64,000 nt of DNA from Clostridia bacterium. GTDB lineage: Bacteria; Bacillota; TC1; UBA5767. The position numbers and the translations under genes were made by a program. Positions 177 through 53,318 of the stretch are shown piece by piece. The DNA lies in contig CP069393.1 of the NCBI GenBank assembly GCA_016887505.1, positions 1,474,001 to 1,538,000 of the forward strand, written 5' to 3'. The notes below the pieces were generated by a model that saw nothing but the letters and a program-made list of their open reading frames with translations, was not told where the DNA came from and searched no databases. Numbering within the stretch: the stretch's first letter is position 1; each line of letters begins with the position of its first letter.

Positions 177-2684
<2,508 letters not shown>

Positions 2685-3129: not shown

Positions 3130-3948
3130 CTAGGACATACTCTTTACTTCTTCAATAAGTTTTTGAACATTGGTTTGAAGCTCAGGATACTTAAAGGGCA
3201 GTCTTTCAAGAGTATTTACTATTACACTGAGAATCAAATAATCCCTAAACCATCTATGATTTGCAGGTACAACATACCAGGGAGCATACTCCGTAGCACA
3301 ATGTGCAAGCATATCCGAATAGCACTGTTGGTAACGATCCCAATGCTTTCTCTCCTCTAGGTCAGATTCCGAGAACTTCCAATTCTTATCCTTTTCTTCC
3401 AATCTTTCTTGAAGCTTCTCTCGTTGAAACTCAGGAGATATATGCAAAAAGAATTTAAGCACTATGGTATCGTTGCTGGTAAGATACCTTTCAAAACTAC
3501 GTATTTCTTCGAACCTCTTATACGCTGTCTCATCGTCAATCGTTCCATGCACTCTAGTCACCAATACATCTTCATAGTAGGATCTATTAAAGATGACGAT
3601 ATCACCTAGTTTCGGCGTTTTCTGATGTACTCGCCATAAGTAATCGTGCCCTAATTCCAGTGGTGTAGGTTCCTTAAAGGAGGCCACACGAAAGCCGTTG
3701 GGATTTATACCAGATAGCACCTTCTTAACTGTTCCATCTTTTCCACTACAATCTATACCTTGAAGAACAATGAGCAAAGCATACTTTTTAGATGCAAACA
3801 GTACTTCTTGAAGTTCACTAAACTTATCTTTTAAGATGCGATATTCTTTTTTTACTTCTTTTTTGGAAAGACCCAATGTTTCCGCCGCTTTAAAGTCTGA
3901 TGTACTAATATTTCGGTCAAACCTGTTTATTGTAAATTTTTCAATCAT
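3130..3948 (-). CDS. Polyphosphate kinase 2 family phosphotransferase
   Basis: 272-residue PPK2-family enzyme that uses inorganic polyphosphate to phosphorylate nucleotides (AMP and/or ADP, depending on class) in the cytoplasm. It has a Walker A-like loop GIDCSGKDG (residues 64-72), the family block FKEPTPLELGHDYLWRVHQK (about 91-110) and a second motif FNRSYYEDVLVTRVHG (about 120-135) with the conserved Asp of the PPK2 lid/Walker B region. Full-length single-domain form. It resembles the polyphosphate:AMP/ADP phosphotransferase type, but I cannot assign the class from motifs alone. GGGTGAG lies just before the ATG. Neighbours are unrelated, so it appears monocistronic. Confidence 0.92.
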   Translation of the reverse strand: MIEKFTINRFDRNISTSDFKAAETLGLSKKEVKKEYRILKDKFSELQEVLFASKKYALLIVLQGIDCSGKDGTVKKVLSGINPNGFRVASFKEPTPLELGHDYLWRVHQKTPKLGDIVIFNRSYYEDVLVTRVHGTIDDETAYKRFEEIRSFERYLTSNDTIVLKFFLHISPEFQREKLQERLEEKDKNWKFSESDLEERKHWDRYQQCYSDMLAHCATEYAPWYVVPANHRWFRDYLILSVIVNTLERLPFKYPELQTNVQKLIEEVKSMS

Positions 3949-39999: not shown

Positions 40000-41034
40000 C
40001 TATTTAAGATAATGTTCCATTGATCTTATTTTACAAGTCAATTTTGGAAGCTGGTCGATGGTTACATATCCTGGTTCAGCATTAATTACATCGGGTATTC
40101 TATTTACAATCTGTGAACTCGTTCCCAGTAATGTTGGAGGATTATCGTTTCTAACATGAATGTTAGGTTCACCTTTAATCCACCATTCATTAGTATCTAT
40201 TTCACCAGGTTCATATACTTTAGCAATCTGCGTAGCTTTAAAAAGTATCCCCTCTTCTGTTTCAATTTCTATGGTGTTATCCAATCCGATAACATCACCT
40301 GCCGGTATTGTACCTTTCATTACTTTGGACTCAATATCATGATCAAGAATTATTGGTTCCACAATTTCTTTTATACTTTTTGTTGTCAGTCCAAGAGCTG
40401 AAATTTGGTTTTCCAAATCCATTCTCAAACAAACTACTTCGTCTCCTATCGGAAGCTTTTCGCCTTTTTCTATCATTTCTCTGATATCATCTGCTTTTCT
40501 TCCAACAACATAATAGTCTGCTACAAACGTCGGAAATTCATCTGTGTTAATACTAACCTGACCCTCAATAGAATCTATCCTATGTGATGCACCTGTCAAA
40601 TTTGTAATCATATTTGCCCAGAATACATCCTGCATTCCGGAGCCTGTAAATGTCACTCCGTTTTCTTTTGCAATTCTATCCAGTTTTGCTGCTAATACGG
40701 GTGAAGAAGTCCATGCATATGAAGCTTCTTCTGAGGTGGTAATTACATTTAAGCCTGCCTCAAGACATTTTTTAACGTGAGGAAATATTGTTTCCAGTGA
40801 TGTGGCTACTGCCACCAATGCGATATCTGCTCCTGTTTCTGCAAGAACTTTATCAGCATCGTCGGATATTATTACATTCAATTTACGGCCTGCTCCTATT
40901 ACATCTCCCAGGTCCTTCCCGACATTTTTAACATCAATTGCATCGGTGATTATTACCCCTTTTTCGGTCATAAACTTTGCAATATCTTTTCCAATGTTCC
41001 CTATTCCGTAGCTTACTGCTTTAATTTTAGGCAT
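40000..41034 (-). CDS. 2,4-diaminopentanoate dehydrogenase-like
   Basis: 344-residue NAD(P)-dependent enzyme with a Rossmann N-terminus (YGIGNIGKDIAKFM) and dihydrodipicolinate-reductase-like fold. The blocks ITTSEEASYAW, GSGMQDVFWANMI and VRNDNPPT are like those of 2,4-diaminopentanoate dehydrogenase (Ord), which in Clostridia oxidatively deaminates the product of ornithine 4,5-aminomutase. The remaining ornithine pathway genes (oraS/oraE, ortA/ortB) are not in the window, so a related amine or amino acid is possible. Strong sigma-A promoter and a palindromic operator precede it. ATG has AAAGGAG upstream; a terminator follows. Monocistronic. Confidence 0.83.
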   Translation of the reverse strand: MPKIKAVSYGIGNIGKDIAKFMTEKGVIITDAIDVKNVGKDLGDVIGAGRKLNVIISDDADKVLAETGADIALVAVATSLETIFPHVKKCLEAGLNVITTSEEASYAWTSSPVLAAKLDRIAKENGVTFTGSGMQDVFWANMITNLTGASHRIDSIEGQVSINTDEFPTFVADYYVVGRKADDIREMIEKGEKLPIGDEVVCLRMDLENQISALGLTTKSIKEIVEPIILDHDIESKVMKGTIPAGDVIGLDNTIEIETEEGILFKATQIAKVYEPGEIDTNEWWIKGEPNIHVRNDNPPTLLGTSSQIVNRIPDVINAEPGYVTIDQLPKLTCKIRSMEHYLK

Positions 41035-41776: not shown

Positions 41777-42967
41777 TTATTTTTCTGGCTGCTCGGTGTA
41801 TAAGCTATCTTGTTTTGTTATATATTCACTTAAATCGGAAGTAGTAATTTTTGTAAGTTCTGCTAAATTACAATAAGGTGTTTCTGTAAATAGGAAGCCA
41901 AAAGGATTTTCGGTTTTTGTATAATCAAGTTCTCTAAGACAAAGGATTTTTATAAAGTCTTTTTTAAGCATTTCAAAATCAAATATATCTCCAATAGAGT
42001 AAGAAGAAGGTTTATTAAGAAGAATAAGCGTATATTTCTTGTCGTCTTTGCCCTTTAAAAGTTCTTTCCAATCAGGACGTTTATTGTTGAAATAATAATC
42101 ATAGGTGAAAAAACCAAAGGCAAAATTGGTAATATCCGTAGTACTCCAGCCTGCAAATCTTAGCGGGTTAAACTCAATTGGGGCAATTTCATTTTTTTCA
42201 TTTACTCTAACTTCTGCATGAAAAGGAAAATTTTTCACACCCAATACTGCATTAATACTATTTAAGTAGTCTTCGAACACTACGACATATTTTTCTAGTA
42301 TTTCTTTGCTTGTGTAATACAAGGTGTCACTAACATCCGACTGTGACAAAAACTCGTGTACCATAATATTTAAAACCACAGCTTGACCATTTTCATCAAA
42401 ATACGCATCAATAGCATATTCATCACCGGTTATATATTGTTCTAAAATGAATTCATGTTCTCCTACAACCGTTGTTGGGAATATACTTTTCCATTTTCCA
42501 TACGATTCTTTAATATCCTCAATAGCAGTTTTAAAGTCTAGCTCATCACTAAGAGCATACACTCCAGCGCTAAAGAAGCCTACGACTGGCTTTAAGATAA
42601 GAGGAAATTTACTCTTGTCAATCTCTAATTTTTCTAAGTCATCAATGCAAACTTTTTTAAAATAAAAACTTGGGTAAAGAGAACTAATTTTTTCTCGAAA
42701 TGCAAACTTGTCTTTCATGATATTAATACTGTTTAGTAAAGACTTATCGTCTATGTTCTTTTTAACCCAATCGAGGGAATTCTCAGAAAGAGTATAAAGC
42801 CGTGAGTTTTTATCAAATATTTTAATAAAATCCGTATCACTAATTAAATTAAAGGAATGTTCCTCATTTTCCCTAATTGAAATCTGACTTTTCAAAACAG
42901 GTATTTGGCAAAGGTCCAAATAGTTTTTTAAATCTTCTGAAATATAAGGTTTATCAATAATAATCAT
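41777..42967 (-). CDS. ATP-grasp family ligase
   Basis: 396-residue cytoplasmic protein with an ATP-grasp domain from about residue 95 to 300: FPLILKPVVGFFSAGVYAL (phosphate-clamp lysine and glycine-rich loop), EFILEQYITGDEYAIDAYF (hinge and acidic residues) and FHAEVRVNEKNEIAPIEFNPLRFAGW (metal-binding Glu/Asn). Such enzymes join a carboxylate to an amine or thiol via acyl-phosphate. The N-terminal 90 residues form a pre-ATP-grasp domain; the C-terminal 90 are not recognised. No amino-acid or peptide partner gene is next to it, so the product cannot be predicted. AAAGGAG precedes the ATG. Single gene. Confidence 0.83.
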   Translation of the reverse strand: MIIIDKPYISEDLKNYLDLCQIPVLKSQISIRENEEHSFNLISDTDFIKIFDKNSRLYTLSENSLDWVKKNIDDKSLLNSINIMKDKFAFREKISSLYPSFYFKKVCIDDLEKLEIDKSKFPLILKPVVGFFSAGVYALSDELDFKTAIEDIKESYGKWKSIFPTTVVGEHEFILEQYITGDEYAIDAYFDENGQAVVLNIMVHEFLSQSDVSDTLYYTSKEILEKYVVVFEDYLNSINAVLGVKNFPFHAEVRVNEKNEIAPIEFNPLRFAGWSTTDITNFAFGFFTYDYYFNNKRPDWKELLKGKDDKKYTLILLNKPSSYSIGDIFDFEMLKKDFIKILCLRELDYTKTENPFGFLFTETPYCNLAELTKITTSDLSEYITKQDSLYTEQPEK

Positions 42968-43433: not shown

Positions 43434-46400
43434 TTACTCTTCAAATAATACCGATACCGTGTAAGTCACCGTAGATCTATCTTCAGCACTGACTGTATAT
43501 TCTACGGGGTCTGTAAAATCATTTCGTGACCATTTCGACTGTGTTCGGCCATTTACAGTTACTGTCGATCCTTCTGAGTTGGTAAACTCTGCACAAAGCC
43601 AAGTCAGTTTTGTCCCAAGAGGTACGATTAATTCAATCGTCTTATTGTCTTCATCTATTGTGCCAATTACCGAAGGGTCTAACTGATGCAAGCTGAATTC
43701 TGAGATTACTTTATTGCTTGAAAATACAGCGGGCAATAACATATCCCCTTCTTCACCAGTTAGCTTGAGGGCTGCTCCTACTATCTTGTCTATTGCTTCT
43801 GGTTGTCTAGCAATTCCCTCATACACGGAGCTAAAACTCAATGCTCTGGCAGCTTGTACCTTTGGATCTGACATATCACCAGCTTCTCCTGTTAGCGTTA
43901 AAGCTGCCGTTTCTAGCTTTAGGTTTGCCCTGGGTTCTCTGCATATTGCTGAATACAGATCACTCAAACCAGTTACTCTAGCAACCTGCACCTCAATAGA
44001 AGACATATCACCATATTCACCAGTTAGCGCTATGGCTGTGTCTACTAACCTATTGTTTTCATCTGGCTGCTTAGCTATTGCCATATACAATTCACCAAAG
44101 CTTAAAGCTCTAGCAGCCTGTACCTCTTTCGATGACATATCGCCATATTCACCGGTTAACGCTATGGCTGCTCCTATTAGCTTATCACTTGCTGATGGAT
44201 TTTCGCCTATCGCGTAATACAAGGCGCTAAAACTTTCTGCTCTGGCAGCTTGCACCTCTTTTGATGACATATCGCCAGCTTCGCCTGTTAGCGCTATCGC
44301 TGCAGCGATTAGTGCATCACTTGCATCTGGATTCGTGATTATTGCTCCATACAAGGCACTAAAACTGGATGCTCTAGCAGCTTGTACCTCTTTCGATGAC
44401 ATATCACCGGCTTCTCCTGTTAATTGAGTGGCTGCAGCTATTAGCATCTCACTTGCGGCAGGTCTATAGGCTATCGCTTCATATAAAGCACCGAAACTTG
44501 AAACTCTAGCAATCTGCGCCTCTTTCGATGACATATCGCCAACTACACCAGTCAGCTCGATGGCTGTATTAATTAGTTCATCACTTGTATCCGGATACAT
44601 AGCGGCTATTGAAGTGTACAAGGTACTGAAGCTTGATGCTCTAGCTGCCTGCACCCCTGCATCAGACATATGACTTGCATCTCCAGTTAGTTCCAAGGCT
44701 ACATTTTTTAGCATTTCACTTGCATCGGGTTTGTTGGCTATTGCTTCATACAAAGCACTGAAACCAGAAACTCTAGCAATCTGTGCCTCTTTCGATGACA
44801 TGTCTCCAACAGGACCAGTTAAGGCGATAGCTGTATCAATTAGCTCATCACTTGACTCTGGATATGCATCGGCAATTGAGGTGTACAAGGTACTGAAACT
44901 TGATGCTCTAGCAGCCTGTGCCTCTTTCGATGACATATCTCCAACAGGACCAGTTAGTCTTACGGCTAATTCTTTTAGAATACCAGTTGTTGCAGGATTG
45001 CTGCCTATTGCTTGATACAAGGTACTGAAGCTTGATGCTCTAGCGGCCTGTACCCCTGCATTCACTTCTGCACCTACCATTTCCTTAGCTGTTCCTGTTA
45101 ATTCTAAGGCTATTGCTTCTAGCATATCACTATATACTGGATAACGGGCTATCGCCATATACAAGGTACTGAAGCTTGATACTCTAGCGGCCTGTACCTC
45201 GGCATCTGACTTATTACTAGCTCCTCCAGTTAGTTTTATGGCTGCATCAATTATCTCATCACGTGCTACTGGCTGGCGACTTATTGCTGAGTATAAATCG
45301 CTGAAGCTTCTTACTCTATATACTTGCGCGTTCTTTGATGACAGATCACCAGCCTCACCTGTTAGTTTAATAGCACCTGCTATTAAACTATCACTTGCTT
45401 CTGGCTGTCTGGCTATTGCTTCGTACAAGGCGCCAAAGCTATATGCTCTGTACATCTGTACTTCCTCAGATGACATATTCCAAGCTTCGCCAGTGAGCTC
45501 TCTTGCAGCTCTAAGTATCTCCATTCCTGCTTCTGGTTGCCTTGCAATTGATGAATATAAGACACTAAAGCTTCTTGCTCTCATGGACTGAACATATGCT
45601 ACATCGGTTGAGAAAGTATCTTGACTAGTTCTCCTTTTATTTTCGCTATCAACGGTTTTAGAAGTTCCTGCTGGAACTGTTTTTTTGCCTGCTTTAATAC
45701 CTTCCGTACCCTCAGCAGCTTCAAGGAGTGTGCCGTGTGTCGTTACATATAAGTTATTTGCATTCGCAATAACAGTACTGACATCGCCGTCCCCGCTGAT
45801 TTTTACTCCATTTCCCTCTACCGTAATACTTTCAACACTAGCTCTTTCGTAAATGATAACGTTCGATTTTTCAGCTTGAACACAAATATTTTTAACCTTT
45901 GAATTCTTAATTATCACTGTTACGTTCGGTGCGATAACGTTTATCGATTCTACATCACCTTCAATGATAACATCATCACTACCATCTACAATGACATCAC
46001 CAATTTCAACCCCATCTTCAGTATATAACCTAGTTCGTCCATCAACACGCGCTATGACTATATTTTTTACTTGGGAACTTCCAATGATTCTGATGGAATT
46101 CACACCACCACCACGGATAACGGTTCTCCCGGTAACGACAACACCATCCAGTGTTACTTCTCCATCTCCAACACCATCTCCAATAATCAAATCCCCCTCA
46201 ATCATAATATCCTTTAATATCACATCGGGTACATTTATCATTAAGCTACCAGTAATATCCTCAGTATATGTACCTGGTTCCTTAATATAATTTTTCAAAA
46301 TATTATCCATTACCTGGGCAAACTCAGCTCTTGTAATGAATTGCTTTGGATTCAGCTTACCATTTGATCCAACAGCATATTCTGCTTCCACAACTGAAGA

Positions 46401-46919
46401 AGTTGCTTCTTTTGCCCACGGGCTGACTGAATTTTTATCTATGAAAGCATCTAAGGCCTGTTCTGAACCTTCAGACAATTTAAATGCTTTGGCAAGCACC
46501 GTAAAAACTTCCTCGCGTGTAATGTTGCTGTCTGGATTCAGTTCATTATCACAACCAGCAAAAAAGTCTAGATAAACTGCTTTTTGCATATCATCATAAT
46601 ACCAGGCATTGATGTCTACATCTTGATACTGGTCTAAAGAAGCAAGCCCCGTTGCACCAAATGCTTTGTTCATAATAGCTGCCATTTGTGCTCTAGTAAG
46701 ATAGTCATTGGGCATAATGAACCCGTTATAGCCAGACAACAAATCGTTACTAACAGCATTGCTAAGTGCTACTGTGGACCAATCACTTGGCATATCAGAA
46801 AACCATGCCCTATCATTTCCTGCATCGCTGTCTATTGCCGCATAAGATGATACCGGTACTGTCGTAAAAACCATAAGCATTATTAGGATAATGCTTACCC
46901 TTCTGTTTCCAAAAACCAT
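43434..46919 (-). CDS. SLH surface protein with fourteen 44-residue repeats
   Basis: 1161 residues from ATG 46919 (GGAG nine bases upstream). Signal peptide (VSIILIMLMVFTTVPVSSYA). Three N-terminal SLH domains (about 35-215: AWFSDMPSDWSTVALSN, VDINAWYYDDMQKAV, SVSPWAKEATSSV) anchor it to the wall. About 220-400 is a beta-helix-like ladder of short V/I-D-G repeats. About 440-1065 has fourteen 44-residue repeats with consensus ARASSFSALYxAIxxxPxAS then DxLIxAAIxLTGEAGDMSS then KEVQA. The last about 90 residues are an Ig-like domain ending EYTVSAEDRSTVTYTVSV. The repeats look like pairs of helices and I recognise no named family. Role: surface structure or adhesion, by inference. Confidence 0.9.
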   Translation of the reverse strand: MVFGNRRVSIILIMLMVFTTVPVSSYAAIDSDAGNDRAWFSDMPSDWSTVALSNAVSNDLLSGYNGFIMPNDYLTRAQMAAIMNKAFGATGLASLDQYQDVDINAWYYDDMQKAVYLDFFAGCDNELNPDSNITREEVFTVLAKAFKLSEGSEQALDAFIDKNSVSPWAKEATSSVVEAEYAVGSNGKLNPKQFITRAEFAQVMDNILKNYIKEPGTYTEDITGSLMINVPDVILKDIMIEGDLIIGDGVGDGEVTLDGVVVTGRTVIRGGGVNSIRIIGSSQVKNIVIARVDGRTRLYTEDGVEIGDVIVDGSDDVIIEGDVESINVIAPNVTVIIKNSKVKNICVQAEKSNVIIYERASVESITVEGNGVKISGDGDVSTVIANANNLYVTTHGTLLEAAEGTEGIKAGKKTVPAGTSKTVDSENKRRTSQDTFSTDVAYVQSMRARSFSVLYSSIARQPEAGMEILRAARELTGEAWNMSSEEVQMYRAYSFGALYEAIARQPEASDSLIAGAIKLTGEAGDLSSKNAQVYRVRSFSDLYSAISRQPVARDEIIDAAIKLTGGASNKSDAEVQAARVSSFSTLYMAIARYPVYSDMLEAIALELTGTAKEMVGAEVNAGVQAARASSFSTLYQAIGSNPATTGILKELAVRLTGPVGDMSSKEAQAARASSFSTLYTSIADAYPESSDELIDTAIALTGPVGDMSSKEAQIARVSGFSALYEAIANKPDASEMLKNVALELTGDASHMSDAGVQAARASSFSTLYTSIAAMYPDTSDELINTAIELTGVVGDMSSKEAQIARVSSFGALYEAIAYRPAASEMLIAAATQLTGEAGDMSSKEVQAARASSFSALYGAIITNPDASDALIAAAIALTGEAGDMSSKEVQAARAESFSALYYAIGENPSASDKLIGAAIALTGEYGDMSSKEVQAARALSFGELYMAIAKQPDENNRLVDTAIALTGEYGDMSSIEVQVARVTGLSDLYSAICREPRANLKLETAALTLTGEAGDMSDPKVQAARALSFSSVYEGIARQPEAIDKIVGAALKLTGEEGDMLLPAVFSSNKVISEFSLHQLDPSVIGTIDEDNKTIELIVPLGTKLTWLCAEFTNSEGSTVTVNGRTQSKWSRNDFTDPVEYTVSAEDRSTVTYTVSVLFEE
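43725..45597 (-). repeat. Fourteen tandem 132-bp coding repeats
   Basis: In-frame repeats of 44 codons inside the SLH gene. Repeats 5 to 12 are most alike (DMSSKEVQAARASSF boundaries), the outer ones are more diverged, as expected from internal duplication. Repeat 4 has an extra four-residue insertion, and two others one extra residue. Confidence 0.9.
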
Positions 46920-47487
46920 GTCTTCTTGCTCCTGTCTTATCACATTTATTTAACTTTCTATCATATATAATAATTCATAATTATTCATAATGGTAGATTT
47001 ATATTAATAAAAAGTGAATAAATCTTGATTGTAAAGTGGTCTACATAGATTACTCTCGGTCAGACCATGTGCTTTTTTGTATTTTTAGAGTCCTGTCATT
47101 ACTAATTCAACTCAGTCAAAAAACAAAAATAACAGGGGGTTCCCCTGTTATTTATTAATTTCTTACATATTCTCTAATTGTCTACTACAAATTCCTAAAC
47201 TTCTTCCACTCATTGCACTGGTACTATTCTACCTGGCCCTAACATAACAGTCCTCTTCCTTTGCCTACCCTAGTAGGGCTGTTCCATCTCTTTTTGGCAT
47301 ATCAGTCATTACCGAATTGTTTTTCATATGCTATCGCAGAGTCTATTTTAGGTATAGCCAATAGCATTTACTTTCTTGAACCTTAAAAACCGTCGCGTAA
47401 GTATTTTTTCCTCAAGCGGCAAACGTTGCCCTTATGTCTCCATAAGAGATTGTAACTTCATTTAGGCAGCCATGCATTAACGAACCC
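46920..47487. other. Intergenic region, SLH upstream and operon 3' end
   Basis: About 570 bases. Contains the SLH leader (AT-rich, promoter not called) and the terminator at 47127-47153. Between 47160 and 47487 nothing is recognised. Confidence 0.45.
47127..47153 (-). terminator. Intrinsic terminator
   Basis: Perfect 12-base arms AAATAACAGGGG and CCCCTGTTATTT with a 3-base loop, then TTGTTTTTT on the minus strand. Probably ends the GAPDH-like/dikinase-like operon, 335 bases beyond its stop. Confidence 0.8.
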
Positions 47488-48744
47488 TTACGACATACTC
47501 TTATGTATATAGACTGCTAATTTGCTTAATAAATTAACATAACTTCCCAATTCATTATCATACCAACCAAATATTTTAGCGTGAGTTACGGGAATATTAA
47601 TATCCTGTGCATCTTCTATTCCATATTCCCTTAATGTTTCAGCCCTAAGTGGAATAAAACCTGTCCGAGTATGCGTTTCCACCCCTTCAATAACGATTGC
47701 GGCTCTATAGCCTACAATGTCTGACGATACATTTTGTTTCTCGCTAAAAACCAACATATCTTTTTGAGCACCACGTGCTGCTGACTTATACACTTCGTTC
47801 AAAAAGTTTCTATTAATGACCGGGGTTTTGGTTTCCGCATCAAGTTTCGTATTAAATGTTAAATTTAAAGTTATTAAAGAAGCTGTATTTGTAGGTACCC
47901 GAACAGAATCTGCCATAAAACCGATTTCTTTAATTTGCGGCAATATTTCTTCCAATGCTATCGCTGCACCTGTAGTAGTCGGTATTATATTATTAAAAAC
48001 TGAACGATTTCTTCTTAAATCAGAGCGTCCTTCTCCAGGAATAGCATCCAAAATATTTTGATTGTTCGTCGCAGCGTGCACAGTAGACATAGAAGCCGTG
48101 ATTATTTCTGAGGTCTCTTTAGTTTCTAAAAGCGGTTTAACCATATGTGCTAAACCCGTAGTTGTACAACTGGCTGCAGAAATTATATGATGTTCATCCG
48201 GATTATACTTGTTATGATTCACACCATAAACAAACATTCCACTATCTTGAGGCATTTTTTGTGAATCGTCCTTAATTTTAAAAGGAGCACTTACAATAAC
48301 CTTTTCCGCTCCCGCCTCAATATGTCCCCGGACACTGCCCTTAGGGCTATCCGCCGGTACTGTGGGATCCACAAAAGCACCCGTACAATCGATTACTAGT
48401 TGCACGCCTTCTTTAGCCCAATTAATATCTCTAGGATTTCTAGAAGTCATTAGTATCTTTATCTGTATTCCATTAATCTCAAGGAGTCCCTCTGACGCAT
48501 CGACAATATTGATTTCACATTTTTTATTAGTATATCCATAGAGAAACGTGTGGATTGATCCGTAGGTAGAATCTTTTGTTAAAAAATCTATCATGTCCTC
48601 CATTTTTCTACCAGCTTTTCGACCTACATTAATCACGAAACCATCGAAATACTGCAAGCTTAAATGATTCCACAAAGTTAATTTTCCTATTCTTCCAGCA
48701 CCATTTATCCCTAAGATCTTTTTGCATTTTAAAAAGTTATTCAT
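47488..48744 (-). CDS. Divergent GAPDH-family dehydrogenase
   Basis: 418 residues, about 80 longer than ordinary glyceraldehyde-3-phosphate dehydrogenase. The NAD-binding start is ILGINGAGRIGKLTLW; the catalytic cysteine is Cys193 in SAASCTTTGLAH (the usual SCTTNCLAP is altered after SCTT), the base is His223 in STVHAATNNQ, and WYDNELGSYVN replaces WYDNEWGYS. Two insertions are visible: a basic stretch GRKAGRKMEDMIDFL near 41-55 and ADSPKGSVRG near 131-140. The acidic residue that normally selects NAD after the second strand is replaced by the GRKAGR stretch, so NADP use is possible (inference). Second gene of the operon with the dikinase-like protein (47 bases apart, GGAG upstream). Substrate need not be glyceraldehyde 3-phosphate. 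Confidence 0.85.
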   Translation of the reverse strand: MNNFLKCKKILGINGAGRIGKLTLWNHLSLQYFDGFVINVGRKAGRKMEDMIDFLTKDSTYGSIHTFLYGYTNKKCEINIVDASEGLLEINGIQIKILMTSRNPRDINWAKEGVQLVIDCTGAFVDPTVPADSPKGSVRGHIEAGAEKVIVSAPFKIKDDSQKMPQDSGMFVYGVNHNKYNPDEHHIISAASCTTTGLAHMVKPLLETKETSEIITASMSTVHAATNNQNILDAIPGEGRSDLRRNRSVFNNIIPTTTGAAIALEEILPQIKEIGFMADSVRVPTNTASLITLNLTFNTKLDAETKTPVINRNFLNEVYKSAARGAQKDMLVFSEKQNVSSDIVGYRAAIVIEGVETHTRTGFIPLRAETLREYGIEDAQDINIPVTHAKIFGWYDNELGSYVNLLSKLAVYIHKSMS

Positions 48745-48791
48745 TGTGATTTCTCCTTGTAAATGTATTATTGTCTTTAGCCATTTAAAGC

Positions 48792-51700
48792 CTACATATA
48801 GTCTATAGGGTAACTACCCCAAAAGATATTCCCGGACTTACCATCAATCGATATAATGTCTCCAGATTTTAAACTCATCTTATTAATTATACATTCTTTT
48901 TTCATATCGTCTATCACTAAATCCCGGCAATTTACAATACACACTTTTCCTAGTTTGCCTGCTGTAACTGCAGAATGAGAAGTTACACCACCTCGACTAG
49001 TTACCAAACCATCACATATAAATATTTTGGGTATATCGTCAGGCACAGTATCTGGCCGAACTAGTATAAGGTCATACTCTGGAGATTCTTTTTTATACAA
49101 GTTAAGGTCCTCCATGTCAAAGCAAATCTTACCAGTCAAGCAGCCACCATCTGTACCTATTCCTCGGCCAATCAGTTTCATATCTTCAGCTGGAACATTA
49201 AAATAGGAAATTCTTTCTTTCGCATTAATTATTTGCTCTCTTGTTTGGAGAATATATAAATCTTCTGGTTCCTCTGATTCAAAAGTAAACTCTATCTCTT
49301 GATTACTAAAACCATAGTTATATATTAAATCCCAAGATATTTCTTTAAGCCTTTTGTAGATTTTAGGAAAAGCTGATTTTAAAGATATCTCCGAATCCTG
49401 ATAATCCTCTTTTCTTTGGTTCTCAGATATGGGTAAGGTATGTACTAAACCTGCCACAATATCCTCTCCCTGGCTACATAAGGTAAAATCTCCGTAGAGA
49501 TTAATCCCTGGTTTACTCAATTTGGGGTTATGCGTAAAAACTACACCTGAGCCAGATTTTTTTGATTTATTACCCATCACCATTTTCTGAACAATTACCG
49601 CTGTTCCCCATTCATCTGCTATTTGTAAATGCTTGCGATAGGATATCGCTCTTGGCGTATTCCAAGAATCTAAAACCATATTAATTGCTTGCTTCAACTG
49701 CTTATAGGGATCATTATTTATAAATACTTTATGCTCTAACAATACCACTTTATACTGGTCCACTAGTTCCTTCATCTGCGAAGAATTAAAATCGGCTTTT
49801 TTAACTACGCCATATTTCTCCTTTAAATTTTTCATCTGAATATCAAAATACGATCGCTCTATCCCATTAAACATCCCCCAGCTTTGGATAAATCTCCGGT
49901 ATGAGTCCCATGACATCCAAGCTTTGTCAGGATCCTTAGCCAGATTGGTAGCAATTTCATCATTAATGCCCACATTTAAAAAAGTACTCATACCACCCGG
50001 TAAAGAAATAGCTGTTCCAGAGCGGACAGACAATAAAAGGGGATTGCTCTTATCTCCAAATTTTTGCTTAGTAATTCTCTCTATTTCCCGAATATTTTCG
50101 TATATTAATTCCTCTAATTCTAAACTCATATAGGGGTGATCTAAAACCGTTTCCATATGTCTGAATACTTCCGTCGTCAGGACAAAACCTGCTGGAATAG
50201 GAAAATTATAAGACGTCAACTTTTTCAGGTAATAGGCTTTTGCACCTAAGAAAACTCTATTATCTATTCTAGGCGTTGCTCTGTTGAATGGGCTTACCGT
50301 TAAATCAGGATTATAGGTCATCATATTTCTGATGTACTTTTGCGAGTAGTTATCAATAACACGGTGCAACTTATTGATAGAATCCGAGATAAAATTATCT
50401 AATTGTTGAATTAAAAAGGCAGAAGAGAGTATCTCTCTATAAAATCCTTCAGATTTTTTTAGTAAGGTTTCCTTGGAATTATCAAAAATACGAGGTACCA
50501 CTTCTCCAAGAGCAGCATCATAGAATCTCATGAAATATTCATTTATAATCTCTTTAATATTTAGAGCCATGAATTGAAAAATATTTATATACTGTTCCAA
50601 AGTAAAGCTAGGTGAAGACAAGCTATACCTAAACATCTCTAAATTTGAATTGAAACTCTGATTTTCCATTCCATCTAATTCCAAACCAATTTTAAACAAA
50701 TTAAGCGCTTCATAAATGTTGTTCAACGTTTTCGCTGTAATATACTCTAATTTAATTTCTCCTAAGATATTATTCATCAAACTAGATGCGACTTTTTCCA
50801 ATCTATACATTAAGCCTAAAGCCTCAAATTTAGGCTCACTATATTTCCCATACATCGATGGTATTCCAATAGCGATATGACGCTTATAATAAATATTTTC
50901 ATACGCTTGACTCTTCTTAGGGTCCAGTATTACGTTTTTCAATTTACCCATTAATAAATAGACTTGATTTAGCGAGTCAATATTATTTTGCTCCGTCATA
51001 TGGTTTTTTAATATAGTAACTTCCTTTTCACTAAAAAAATTGCTTTTTTCTAGAACTCCCACAATATCAATCGTTTCCAAAGTGTATTTTTCAATTAGCA
51101 AATTATTGATTTGAATTAAATAGATTAATCTCTTTTTATCTCGATCGTTATCACTCGCATATCCACTAATAAAATTTACGACTTCCGTTTCGGGTAAAGT
51201 TAAGAGCCCTAAATAATCTGTTTTAAACTCCTTACAAGTAGCCTTCATAAGCTTATGCACAGTTGTATAATACTTATTTTTAGTATCTAATGTGCCCTTT
51301 AAGTCTGGAGGCAGGATATCACTTAAGCTAAGTGTATCTCCTGTAAGCCAGTAAGTGCCCACTCTTTGAATTAAATCAATATGAGTATTATTGCTTTCTG
51401 TATGAATCTGTTTTCGCACAAAATGGATAAGGCGGTCCTCTCTTCTAGCTAATTCATCCATCGCCGTCGTCGCTTCTCTAAGTTTTCCTTCTGCTCCTAT
51501 TTCTCTGAAATAAACGGGGAAGAATCGAGCCAACTGCTTTATTTGATTATAAACTGGAGCTATTTCCGAATTAAGCAGTTTCGTAACATCTCTTTGAAAA
51601 AGATCTGTATCCGAAATAAATATACCGCCCAGTCTCACATTAACCAACAAGGCTGCTAATAGCTTTTTAAAGCTATTGGGTGCTCTTTCAATTAATTCTA

Positions 51701-52859
51701 ACCACACCCTAATATTTTTCACATGGTTTGTATTTACCTTGATTTGCCAATCAATCGTTAATTCTAAATTACCAGGATTTATAAAACCGAAGGATATCAA
51801 TTTACGATTAAAATAAGAAATCAGTTTTAGATCATCAATATCTACAATTTCTTTACCCAGTGTGGATATACAGTCTAAAACAGTCCCGGAATATTGAGAA
51901 TTTAATTCTACAAAAAGGCTAAATAATTTATCAATAAATTCATATCTTTCATCATTTTCCAAGCCAATTAAAGAATCTTTTAATAATCTATTCATACTAT
52001 ATAGTAAGTGATTTTTAAGTTGATTCATCCCAGGTAAATGCATAATGAAAAATAGGTACTGTATTTTCTCTATAGACAATTCAAATTCATCACTAAAATG
52101 TCTAAAATGATTGGCTATATCATTAAAGAATAAATTAGAGGTAATTTCCTCCCAATTTTGGGAGTTCTCTATCTGTTGCTTTAAATCATCAAAGAATTTA
52201 GCACCTATTACTTCACTTACCGTAGATGCATATTTAGATTGAAAAATACTTCTTTTACTATCGAACCACTCTTCAGCATTGGTGCTTTTTTTCCAATAAT
52301 CCGTGCTTTTTAGCAAAATATCTTTCGTCATTGAACATATTTCGGTGTTAAATTCAGGAATCGCTGCGACCCTCGATAAATAGTTTTTAAAAAAGCCTGC
52401 ATTCCGAATAAAAATATCTTGGTTGCTAGCCATACCTTTTTTTATTAAAGCTATTACTCTTTTAATAACTTCAGGACGTGATTTTCCTTCTTTAAGCAGT
52501 TGATCAATGAACTTAAAGATGATTTTCATCAACTGTTCTTCTCTGCTAGGTCCCATTTTCTTTGCATAGAGGTCTTCAAAAATTCCAATCAAAAAAATAA
52601 GTGCTTCTTCCGACTCCTCAATGGAGTTGTAAAACCACAGGTCAGTTAAACTTATATTATGCAAATTTTCTAAAATATAGTCATAGTTAACGAAATTATG
52701 ATTGTATTCCAAAATAAATTCTTCTGTTCGTTTATTTATACCCCACTTCTCTGCCGAAAGGCCGATAAACCAATTATGCTTTTCGGGTATCTCTATATCT
52801 TCATGTCTGGTTTCTACTAGATTAGCTTCTAAAGCCTTAGATTCGAATATCTTTTCCAT
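48792..52859 (-). CDS. Dikinase-like protein, PPDK ATP and His domains, no PEP barrel
   Basis: 1355 residues. About 1-865: helical region I cannot assign (no repeats or known motif). About 870-1240: PPDK/PEP-synthase-type nucleotide domain (LGAKAYYLKKL...FPIPAGFVLT; SVRSGTAISLPGGMSTFLN, close to PPDK's SVRSG...MPGMMDT; later EFTFESEEPEDLYILQTREQ). About 1255-1355: phospho-histidine swivel domain with TSRGGVTSHSAVTAG, His1295. The protein stops there, whereas PPDK and PEP synthase continue with a PEP/pyruvate TIM barrel. Rifampin phosphotransferase and glucan, water dikinase also lack that barrel and use another acceptor domain. I infer an ATP-dependent dikinase whose acceptor is bound by the unknown N-terminus or by the GAPDH-like partner. 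Kinase versus PEP-independent function is unproven. Confidence 0.85.
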   Translation of the reverse strand: MEKIFESKALEANLVETRHEDIEIPEKHNWFIGLSAEKWGINKRTEEFILEYNHNFVNYDYILENLHNISLTDLWFYNSIEESEEALIFLIGIFEDLYAKKMGPSREEQLMKIIFKFIDQLLKEGKSRPEVIKRVIALIKKGMASNQDIFIRNAGFFKNYLSRVAAIPEFNTEICSMTKDILLKSTDYWKKSTNAEEWFDSKRSIFQSKYASTVSEVIGAKFFDDLKQQIENSQNWEEITSNLFFNDIANHFRHFSDEFELSIEKIQYLFFIMHLPGMNQLKNHLLYSMNRLLKDSLIGLENDERYEFIDKLFSLFVELNSQYSGTVLDCISTLGKEIVDIDDLKLISYFNRKLISFGFINPGNLELTIDWQIKVNTNHVKNIRVWLELIERAPNSFKKLLAALLVNVRLGGIFISDTDLFQRDVTKLLNSEIAPVYNQIKQLARFFPVYFREIGAEGKLREATTAMDELARREDRLIHFVRKQIHTESNNTHIDLIQRVGTYWLTGDTLSLSDILPPDLKGTLDTKNKYYTTVHKLMKATCKEFKTDYLGLLTLPETEVVNFISGYASDNDRDKKRLIYLIQINNLLIEKYTLETIDIVGVLEKSNFFSEKEVTILKNHMTEQNNIDSLNQVYLLMGKLKNVILDPKKSQAYENIYYKRHIAIGIPSMYGKYSEPKFEALGLMYRLEKVASSLMNNILGEIKLEYITAKTLNNIYEALNLFKIGLELDGMENQSFNSNLEMFRYSLSSPSFTLEQYINIFQFMALNIKEIINEYFMRFYDAALGEVVPRIFDNSKETLLKKSEGFYREILSSAFLIQQLDNFISDSINKLHRVIDNYSQKYIRNMMTYNPDLTVSPFNRATPRIDNRVFLGAKAYYLKKLTSYNFPIPAGFVLTTEVFRHMETVLDHPYMSLELEELIYENIREIERITKQKFGDKSNPLLLSVRSGTAISLPGGMSTFLNVGINDEIATNLAKDPDKAWMSWDSYRRFIQSWGMFNGIERSYFDIQMKNLKEKYGVVKKADFNSSQMKELVDQYKVVLLEHKVFINNDPYKQLKQAINMVLDSWNTPRAISYRKHLQIADEWGTAVIVQKMVMGNKSKKSGSGVVFTHNPKLSKPGINLYGDFTLCSQGEDIVAGLVHTLPISENQRKEDYQDSEISLKSAFPKIYKRLKEISWDLIYNYGFSNQEIEFTFESEEPEDLYILQTREQIINAKERISYFNVPAEDMKLIGRGIGTDGGCLTGKICFDMEDLNLYKKESPEYDLILVRPDTVPDDIPKIFICDGLVTSRGGVTSHSAVTAGKLGKVCIVNCRDLVIDDMKKECIINKMSLKSGDIISIDGKSGNIFWGSYPIDYM

Positions 52860-53318
52860 GTAATCACCCTGAATTTATATCCTTTCATTTTTCAATAGTA
52901 ATTATCATACTATTATAACATGTTAATTTTAAAAGCACTCATTGCCAAAGTTTACAACATAGTGAGGCCAGTAAAGCCTGCCGACAAAAATAATCACAGC
53001 TAGGTGCACCTTGGGAAAAATCCATTTCATACACCATAATCACATTCTGCACTTTTCGCAAATCCAGATTCAATAATTTCGAAGATGCTTCTAATGCAAA
53101 GATTACTTGCTAAAACCAAAGACTTAAATACAAATATAAGAGTGTACAAGATGATTTCTTATTCGTAGCTTCAGGCTGAGTCGGAGGGTATTTTTGCTGT
53201 ATTAAGAGGAGATTAACAGCGAATTGGATTTTTGTGGTTACTATACTGTGAACAAGTCGGAATGAAAACGTAAAGGAGTCGAATTCGACTCCTTTACAAA
53301 ACAAGCGCTTATTTGACT
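52860..53318. other. Intergenic region before the dikinase-like operon
   Basis: About 460 bases. The ABC-F terminator (53270-53297) is at its right end. The dikinase promoter should lie here; none is clear. No gene found. Confidence 0.45.
53270..53297 (-). terminator. Intrinsic terminator of the ABC-F gene
   Basis: 28-base perfect palindrome (GTAAAGGAGTCGAA and complement) followed on the minus strand by GTTTTC, 22 bases past the stop. Confidence 0.85.

Follow-up and report, generated by a model that had tools for sequence, protein, structure and literature searches.

Here we describe a two-gene module encoded in a 64,000-nucleotide stretch of DNA (hereafter the window) from a Clostridia bacterium (GenBank assembly GCA_016887505.1, contig CP069393.1, positions 1,474,001 to 1,538,000), in which a large gene for a dikinase-like protein (gene D) is directly followed by a gene for a divergent glyceraldehyde-3-phosphate dehydrogenase or GAPDH (gene G). 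An immediately adjacent G follows D in 29 of the 30 distinct loci for which downstream sequence was available; thus, the adjacency of D and G goes beyond chance, and the pair is a real module. D carries the ATP and phospho-histidine domains of pyruvate phosphate dikinase (PPDK) without the phosphoenolpyruvate (PEP)/pyruvate barrel of that enzyme, and G retains the catalytic residues of GAPDH with loss of its NAD-type residues. As a possible explanation, which we put forward tentatively, D and G would be consecutive enzymes with a common acyl-phosphate intermediate, converting 3-phosphoglycerate to glyceraldehyde 3-phosphate in an NADPH-linked, one-way bypass of phosphoglycerate kinase (PGK) and GAPDH; the rival explanations weighed below jointly outweigh this one.

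48792..52859, minus strand: gene D, dikinase of PPDK type lacking the barrel and extended by a large N-terminal region (1355 residues, ATG start)
47488..48744, minus strand: gene G, GAPDH-like, bearing insertions specific to the family and a cofactor signature of NADP type (418 residues, ATG start)

Across loci, D and G are separated by 0-250 nt, or their open frames overlap slightly, and the trees of the two proteins agree on two main clades and on most well-supported groups. The initial annotation of this region had named the finding of many D genes lacking an adjacent GAPDH as what would speak against it; this search was run, and D proved to be followed by G in all but one of the loci. It is highly improbable that chance or hitch-hiking brought the two genes together and that they function independently. 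A lone D in Acetobacterium paludosum and a lone G in genome G1214 speak for such independence; against it, the pair recurs over two deep clades in which the flanking genes differ, and the D and G trees are in broad agreement. A search with the N-terminal 860 residues of D gave matches in 5 of 398 genomes of the phylum (about 1%), and a scan of the genome collection yielded 24 named loci. Further, a D profile search was positive in 18 of 98 genomes of one class, where the G-type search was also positive in 18 of 98 (and in 14 of 391 genomes of another class), and 17 of the 18 D-positive genomes carry G as well. The module, which is present in Petroclostridium sp. X23, is sporadic and almost wholly confined to Bacillota. 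The two congeners of the window's genome are devoid of it, which makes the distribution patchy, as a result of loss or transfer. In genome G924, D and G lie on different contigs, so adjacency there cannot be judged. In genome G429 (L079 7251-7931) the first residues of D continue, without a frame shift, into the central part of G, giving a 226-residue open frame whose fusion point is a short shared sequence (GAAACCAGG-like), an apparent deletion scar of the module or an assembly collapse. Two records titled 'Calditrichales' (L030) and 'Candidatus Sumerlaeota' (L034) cluster with homologues from Bacillota, and genome classification puts both source genomes in the same class or phylum as Bacillota members; the titles are probably wrong.

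Residues 866-1350 of D were recognized in Pfam as PPDK_N followed by the PEP-utilizers mobile domain, and the following features were located in this part of the protein:

49215..50264, minus strand: PPDK-type ATP-grasp domain, D residues 866-1215 (TIGR01828, 372 bits, and alignments)
48810..49178, minus strand: phospho-histidine swivel domain, D residues 1228-1350, with the motif GGVTSHSA (PF00391, 61 bits)
48975..48977, minus strand: codon of His1295, equivalent to PPDK His455 (alignments)

The ATP-grasp catalytic positions of D are K874, R946, R989, E1188, E1190, Q1205 and R1207. In the alignment, the equivalents of PPDK K22, R92, R135, E323, Q335, R337 and His455 are all retained, that of Asp321 being Glu, and the catalytic motifs are kept in almost all homologues covering them, apart from a few pattern misses. 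No Pfam match to the PEP-utilizers_C barrel (PF02896) was obtained in D at E<=1, the chain stopping after the swivel domain, and the PGK domain PF00162 is also absent, as the Pfam matches consist only of PPDK_N and PEP-utilizers. The scan thus bears out the initial description of PPDK-type ATP and phospho-histidine domains without the PEP/pyruvate barrel, and both domains are complete. The altered catalytic loops mentioned in the same description were not recovered, the catalytic residues being retained in both D and G; of the proposed operon of two linked enzymes, the conserved unit stands and the altered loops do not.

Comparison with known systems places D apart from each of them. PPDK has the same order of ATP-grasp and phospho-histidine domains and the same catalytic residues, and its regulatory Thr, two residues before the His, is also found in D; it carries, however, a C-terminal PEP/pyruvate barrel, instead of which D has 860 N-terminal residues of predicted helical structure. 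Among NCBIfam profiles, D scored 372 bits with PPDK (TIGR01828), 80 with PEP synthase and 29 with rifamycin phosphotransferase, and did not reach the TIGR01828 equivalog cut-off of 843 bits. With the barrel absent and the score far below the cut-off, D is not a PPDK; a separate canonical PPDK is encoded in the same genome at ~880 kb. In rifampin phosphotransferase (RPH), HpeHI, CreHI and PpsAB, the barrel is swapped for another substrate domain and the swivel histidine carries the phosphate (PMC4844700, PMC12167813). D resembles this group in having the barrel replaced by another region and in the swivel histidine; nonetheless, the order in the group is ATP-grasp, substrate domain and histidine, or these are split over two proteins, whereas in D the N-terminal (proposed substrate) region precedes ATP-grasp and histidine, and the grasp domain is closer to that of PPDK than to that of PEP synthase. 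Furthermore, D scored 29 bits with the rifampin phosphotransferase model NF041857 (cut-off 999), the similarity being limited to the grasp and histidine domains. According to this domain order and grasp type, D is not an RPH-type dikinase. Glucan water dikinase, another dikinase that does not act on pyruvate, carries starch-binding domains, and its histidine and ATP domains come in the opposite order; neither trait was seen in D. The D-G module fits in as a further type of swivelling-histidine dikinase, one that has an acceptor region of its own and is coupled to a constant redox partner. No existing family was found to cover the pair in Pfam, NCBIfam or PDB sequences, as had been supposed, and no paper on the pair or on a phosphoglycerate dikinase was found in the literature searched, which is not proof of absence; the single text hit was in a rice proteomics paper.

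The N-terminal region of D was approached through profile searches and structure prediction. Residues 1-860 match no Pfam or NCBIfam family, their profile has no sequence relative in the PDB, and no matches were obtained in sequences of plasmid, phage or viral origin. The AlphaFold2 model of this region (25 homologues) has a mean predicted local distance difference test score (pLDDT) of 84 and a predicted template modeling score (pTM) of 0.72, and is helical throughout, with a single beta hairpin at 653-674. Residues 365-860 modelled alone gave a mean pLDDT of 80.8. A PEP barrel hidden in this region was considered and rejected, as the best Pfam match had an E of 0.47 (scan to E 10) and the models are all-helical. 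The models and the alignment of homologues delineate the following parts:

51786..52802, minus strand: predicted HEAT/ARM-like alpha-helical superhelix, D residues 20-358 (AlphaFold2 model)
50280..51749, minus strand: all-helical region with one beta hairpin, D residues 371-860 (AlphaFold2 models)
51378..51536, minus strand: motif FPVYF.EIGAEG.LR...R.D...HF.RKQ.H.ESNNTHI, D residues 442-494, nearly invariant in 25 homologues
50802..50900, minus strand: motif E.IYYKRH.A.GIPSMYG.Y.EPKF...G, D residues 654-686, sequence-invariant hairpin and loop

Foldseek returned no match at E<=0.001 in the PDB for either N-terminal model. The VIA-align matches were generic helical ones with Z up to about 11, which are not interpretable; for residues 20-358 the best had Z 8-11, mostly with helical repeat proteins and within the tool's own unspecific range. 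RPH, PPDK and PGK were not among the fold matches listed for these models, which does not exclude a likeness to the substrate-binding domain of RPH. Thus, no confident known fold was assigned to the predicted structure of residues 1-860. Conservation is strongest at 379-384, 410-430, 442-494 and 654-686, and the most invariant motifs are rich in K, R, H and N. The loops 448-455 and 656-671 combine high sequence conservation with low predicted confidence, and therefore may be mobile active-site loops or a lid. We propose residues 371-860 as the acceptor-binding domain. In a fairly improbable alternative, D would not act on a metabolite but as a protein-histidine phosphotransferase, using its helical solenoid to bind G and either regulating G or being regulated by it. 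The predicted resemblance of residues 20-358 to protein-binding solenoids of the HEAT/ARM type would suit such a role, and the family-specific insertions of G could form a docking surface; conversely, invariance in D is highest outside the solenoid, in the K/R/H/N-rich motifs of 371-860, as in a small-molecule site, and characterized dikinases work on metabolites or glucans.

G is composed of the Pfam domains Gp_dh_N and Gp_dh_C, shows about 40% identity to canonical GAPDH, and is 84 residues longer than the GAPDH of its own genome, with several family-specific insertions. It scored 310 bits with type I GAPDH (TIGR01534), under the 367-bit cut-off, and 118 bits with erythrose-4-phosphate dehydrogenase (TIGR01532, cut-off 530), of which it is not a member by this cut-off. 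Two catalytic residues were located by alignment:

48166..48168, minus strand: codon of the catalytic Cys193 (SCTTT)
48076..48078, minus strand: codon of the catalytic His223 (TVHAATNNQ)

Cys193 (SCTT) is retained in 24 of 24 homologues, and the other catalytic and Pi/Ps phosphate-site motifs in 22 of 24, one of the remaining rows being truncated and one a variant; besides the Cys and His, the motifs TNNQ, T-S/T-TGA, RIP/RVP and WYDNE are found in nearly all. With these motifs retained, a phosphorylated C3-type aldehyde or acyl phosphate would fit as the substrate of G. The NAD-type Asp32 is lost in all 24 homologues, being replaced by A, T, S, V or M followed by an invariant GR; the NAD-type Leu187 is likewise lost, position 187 being small (A/G/T/S) in 24 of 24, and an Arg is kept at the place of residue 77, followed by Asn. 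In photosynthetic GAPDH, residues 32-35, 77, 187 and 188 bear on the use of NADPH (PMC3728087). Since Asp32 and Leu187 are lost at such NADPH-governing positions, G likely uses NADP(H), although this is not certain. Taken together, the D-G pair resembles type I GAPDH and the PGK/GAPDH pairs in its GAPDH fold, in nearly all catalytic and phosphate-site residues and in the logic of a kinase with a dehydrogenase, and differs from them in that G is longer, falls below the TIGR01534 cut-off, has an NADP-type site and is partnered by a dikinase rather than by PGK.

The genes flanking the module vary by lineage, the D-G pair being the constant. In one family, G is followed by a DUF362-like iron-sulphur protein and a full-length SerA (TIGR01327, 693 bits), with NagB upstream in several loci and a cofactor-independent phosphoglycerate mutase and threonine synthase farther along. 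SerA adjoins G or stands two genes after it in two clades; in the second clade it is a short SerA-like form (254 bits, below cut-off), which comes after G in L025, L030 and L077 but does not in L026, L027 and L078. In a third lineage (L071), the genes upstream of D encode glycerate kinase (PF02595, 534 bits) and a GntP permease. The chance probability of three independent phosphoglycerate/glycerate neighbors in 50-80 slots was estimated as about 0.1-3%, assuming 10-20 such genes in 2500. The substrate of the module might instead be a different acid or aldehyde, for example an intermediate of fermentation or a sugar-acid phosphate with four carbons, the logic of carboxylate kinase and acyl-phosphate reductase being unchanged. 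This is unlikely: the distance of G from canonical GAPDH, the coexistence of both normal phosphoglycerate-step enzymes with the module and the diversity of its neighborhoods (glycine reductase, arginine deiminase-like and hydrogenase genes) favor it, but nearly all GAPDH substrate-site residues are retained in G, and the erythrose-4-phosphate dehydrogenase score is far under that of GAPDH.

With the dikinase fixed beside a GAPDH whose substrate site is intact, D fits best as the acyl-phosphate partner of G, the two sharing a common intermediate. Dehydrogenases of the GAPDH superfamily are typically paired with an acyl-phosphate kinase, as in PGK/GAPDH, aspartokinase/Asd and ArgB/ArgC. In PPDK, the phospho-histidine carries the energy required for PEP formation; making an acyl phosphate would therefore be feasible for D. 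In our tentative model, the ATP-grasp domain of D would phosphorylate His1295 from ATP, leaving AMP, and the swivel domain would carry the phosphate to a sugar-acid phosphate bound in the helical region. The resulting acyl phosphate, probably 1,3-bisphosphoglycerate from 3-phosphoglycerate, would be handed to G, possibly by channelling, and reduced with NADPH via a thioacyl-Cys193 intermediate with release of phosphate. The conserved site of G and the neighbor genes point to 3-phosphoglycerate as the likeliest substrate, in a one-way bypass of PGK and GAPDH, and the cofactor signature of G, together with the ATP-to-AMP drive in D, favors the reductive, gluconeogenic direction. The module would then be an extra route, as is GapB beside GapA in Bacillus. 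PPDK and PEP synthase bypass pyruvate kinase, and the gluconeogenic direction is needed by anaerobes living on amino acids or acetate.

The opposite, catabolic direction was also weighed: G would oxidize glyceraldehyde 3-phosphate to 1,3-bisphosphoglycerate, and D would make ATP from it with AMP and pyrophosphate. PPDK makes ATP from AMP and pyrophosphate in some fermenting clostridia, the ATP-grasp domain of D is of the PPDK (pyrophosphate-linked) type rather than the PEP synthase or rifamycin phosphotransferase type, and its reaction would be reversible; nevertheless, the cofactor site of G looks NADP-type, which is commoner for reduction, and PGK already takes this energy, so we regard this direction as improbable.

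Several observations weigh against the gluconeogenic bypass. We know of no dikinase that makes an acyl phosphate, and neither Foldseek nor VIA-align recognized a ligand-binding fold in the helical region of D. At position 188, G-type proteins have V, P, S, A or I and mostly lack the Ser found there in photosynthetic GAPDH. D stands alone in A. paludosum DSM 8237 (L037), the sole non-adjacent locus of the 30; that genome has no G-type GAPDH, and the next gene downstream is thymidylate synthase-like. G stands alone in genome G1214 (L073 7871-9082, 60% identity), which has no D; this G has the same Cys and His and a non-acidic residue instead of Asp32. Most neighborhoods are unrelated to phosphoglycerate, with hydrogenase, sulfatase, TctA-like transporter, rhomboid, glycine reductase and arginine deiminase-like genes among the neighbors, and the category linking SerA and glycerate kinase was chosen after seeing the data, which makes this link only a hint. 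All but one of the 24 module genomes carry PGK, and nearly all carry a second, canonical GAPDH (in the window's genome, canonical gap and pgk adjoin each other elsewhere, at 1706-1708 kb). The module is therefore not needed for the basic reaction, and a role as replacement for a missing PGK or GAPDH was rejected. In its most specific form, with D as a phosphoglycerate dikinase and the first known swivelling-histidine enzyme that makes an acyl phosphate, providing with an NADPH-type GAPDH a hitherto unseen ATP-to-AMP-driven bypass of PGK/GAPDH in the gluconeogenesis of fermenting bacteria, the proposal is doubtful.

In the window, both open reading frames have the sizes initially annotated, as does the 47-base gap between them (48745-48791). 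Three signals accompany them:

48753..48758, minus strand: AAGGAG, a good ribosome-binding site for G (from the sequence)
47127..47153, minus strand: terminator-like hairpin 3' of G (the pattern is matched on either strand)
53269..53298, minus strand: terminator-like hairpin ending the upstream ABC-F-like gene, 5' border of the operon

As the upstream ABC-F-like gene ends in its own hairpin, it is reasonable to regard D and G as a two-gene unit. Regarding the shared terminator of the initial annotation, the hairpin 3' of G exists, but it lies ~335 nt from the end of the gene, which makes it plausible and not tight. In the D-G region, sigma-70-like promoter matches show no excess over chance, and no Rfam element was found. 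Elsewhere in the window, a 1169-residue SLH-domain (S-layer-type) protein is encoded at 43434-46943 (minus strand). Its C-terminal half contains tandem repeats, which have periods of 132 and 267 bp in the DNA and a unit resembling ..QAARASSFSALY.AI...P.AS..LI..AI.LTGEAGDMSSKE, and it has no Pfam match other than SLH. A 2,4-diaminopentanoate dehydrogenase C-terminal domain (PF19328) at 40003-41034 (minus strand) points to amino-acid fermentation of the ornithine type, and an ATP-grasp domain is encoded upstream of it at 41777-42967. A KatG-like peroxidase (177-2372, minus strand) and a polyphosphate kinase 2 (3130-3948, minus strand) are also found; the host is presumed to be a fermenter.

If the proposed bypass is true, energy-limited anaerobes would have a dedicated reductive route, driven by energy, for a central step of gluconeogenesis that PGK and GAPDH usually carry out, and activation of carboxylates would be established for dikinases. 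The proposal is testable, since named strains carry the genes (A. paludosum DSM 8237 with D alone and Petroclostridium sp. X23 with the pair). Even with another substrate, D and G constitute a conserved pair of enzymes, of which 860 residues in D lie outside the protein-family libraries searched.

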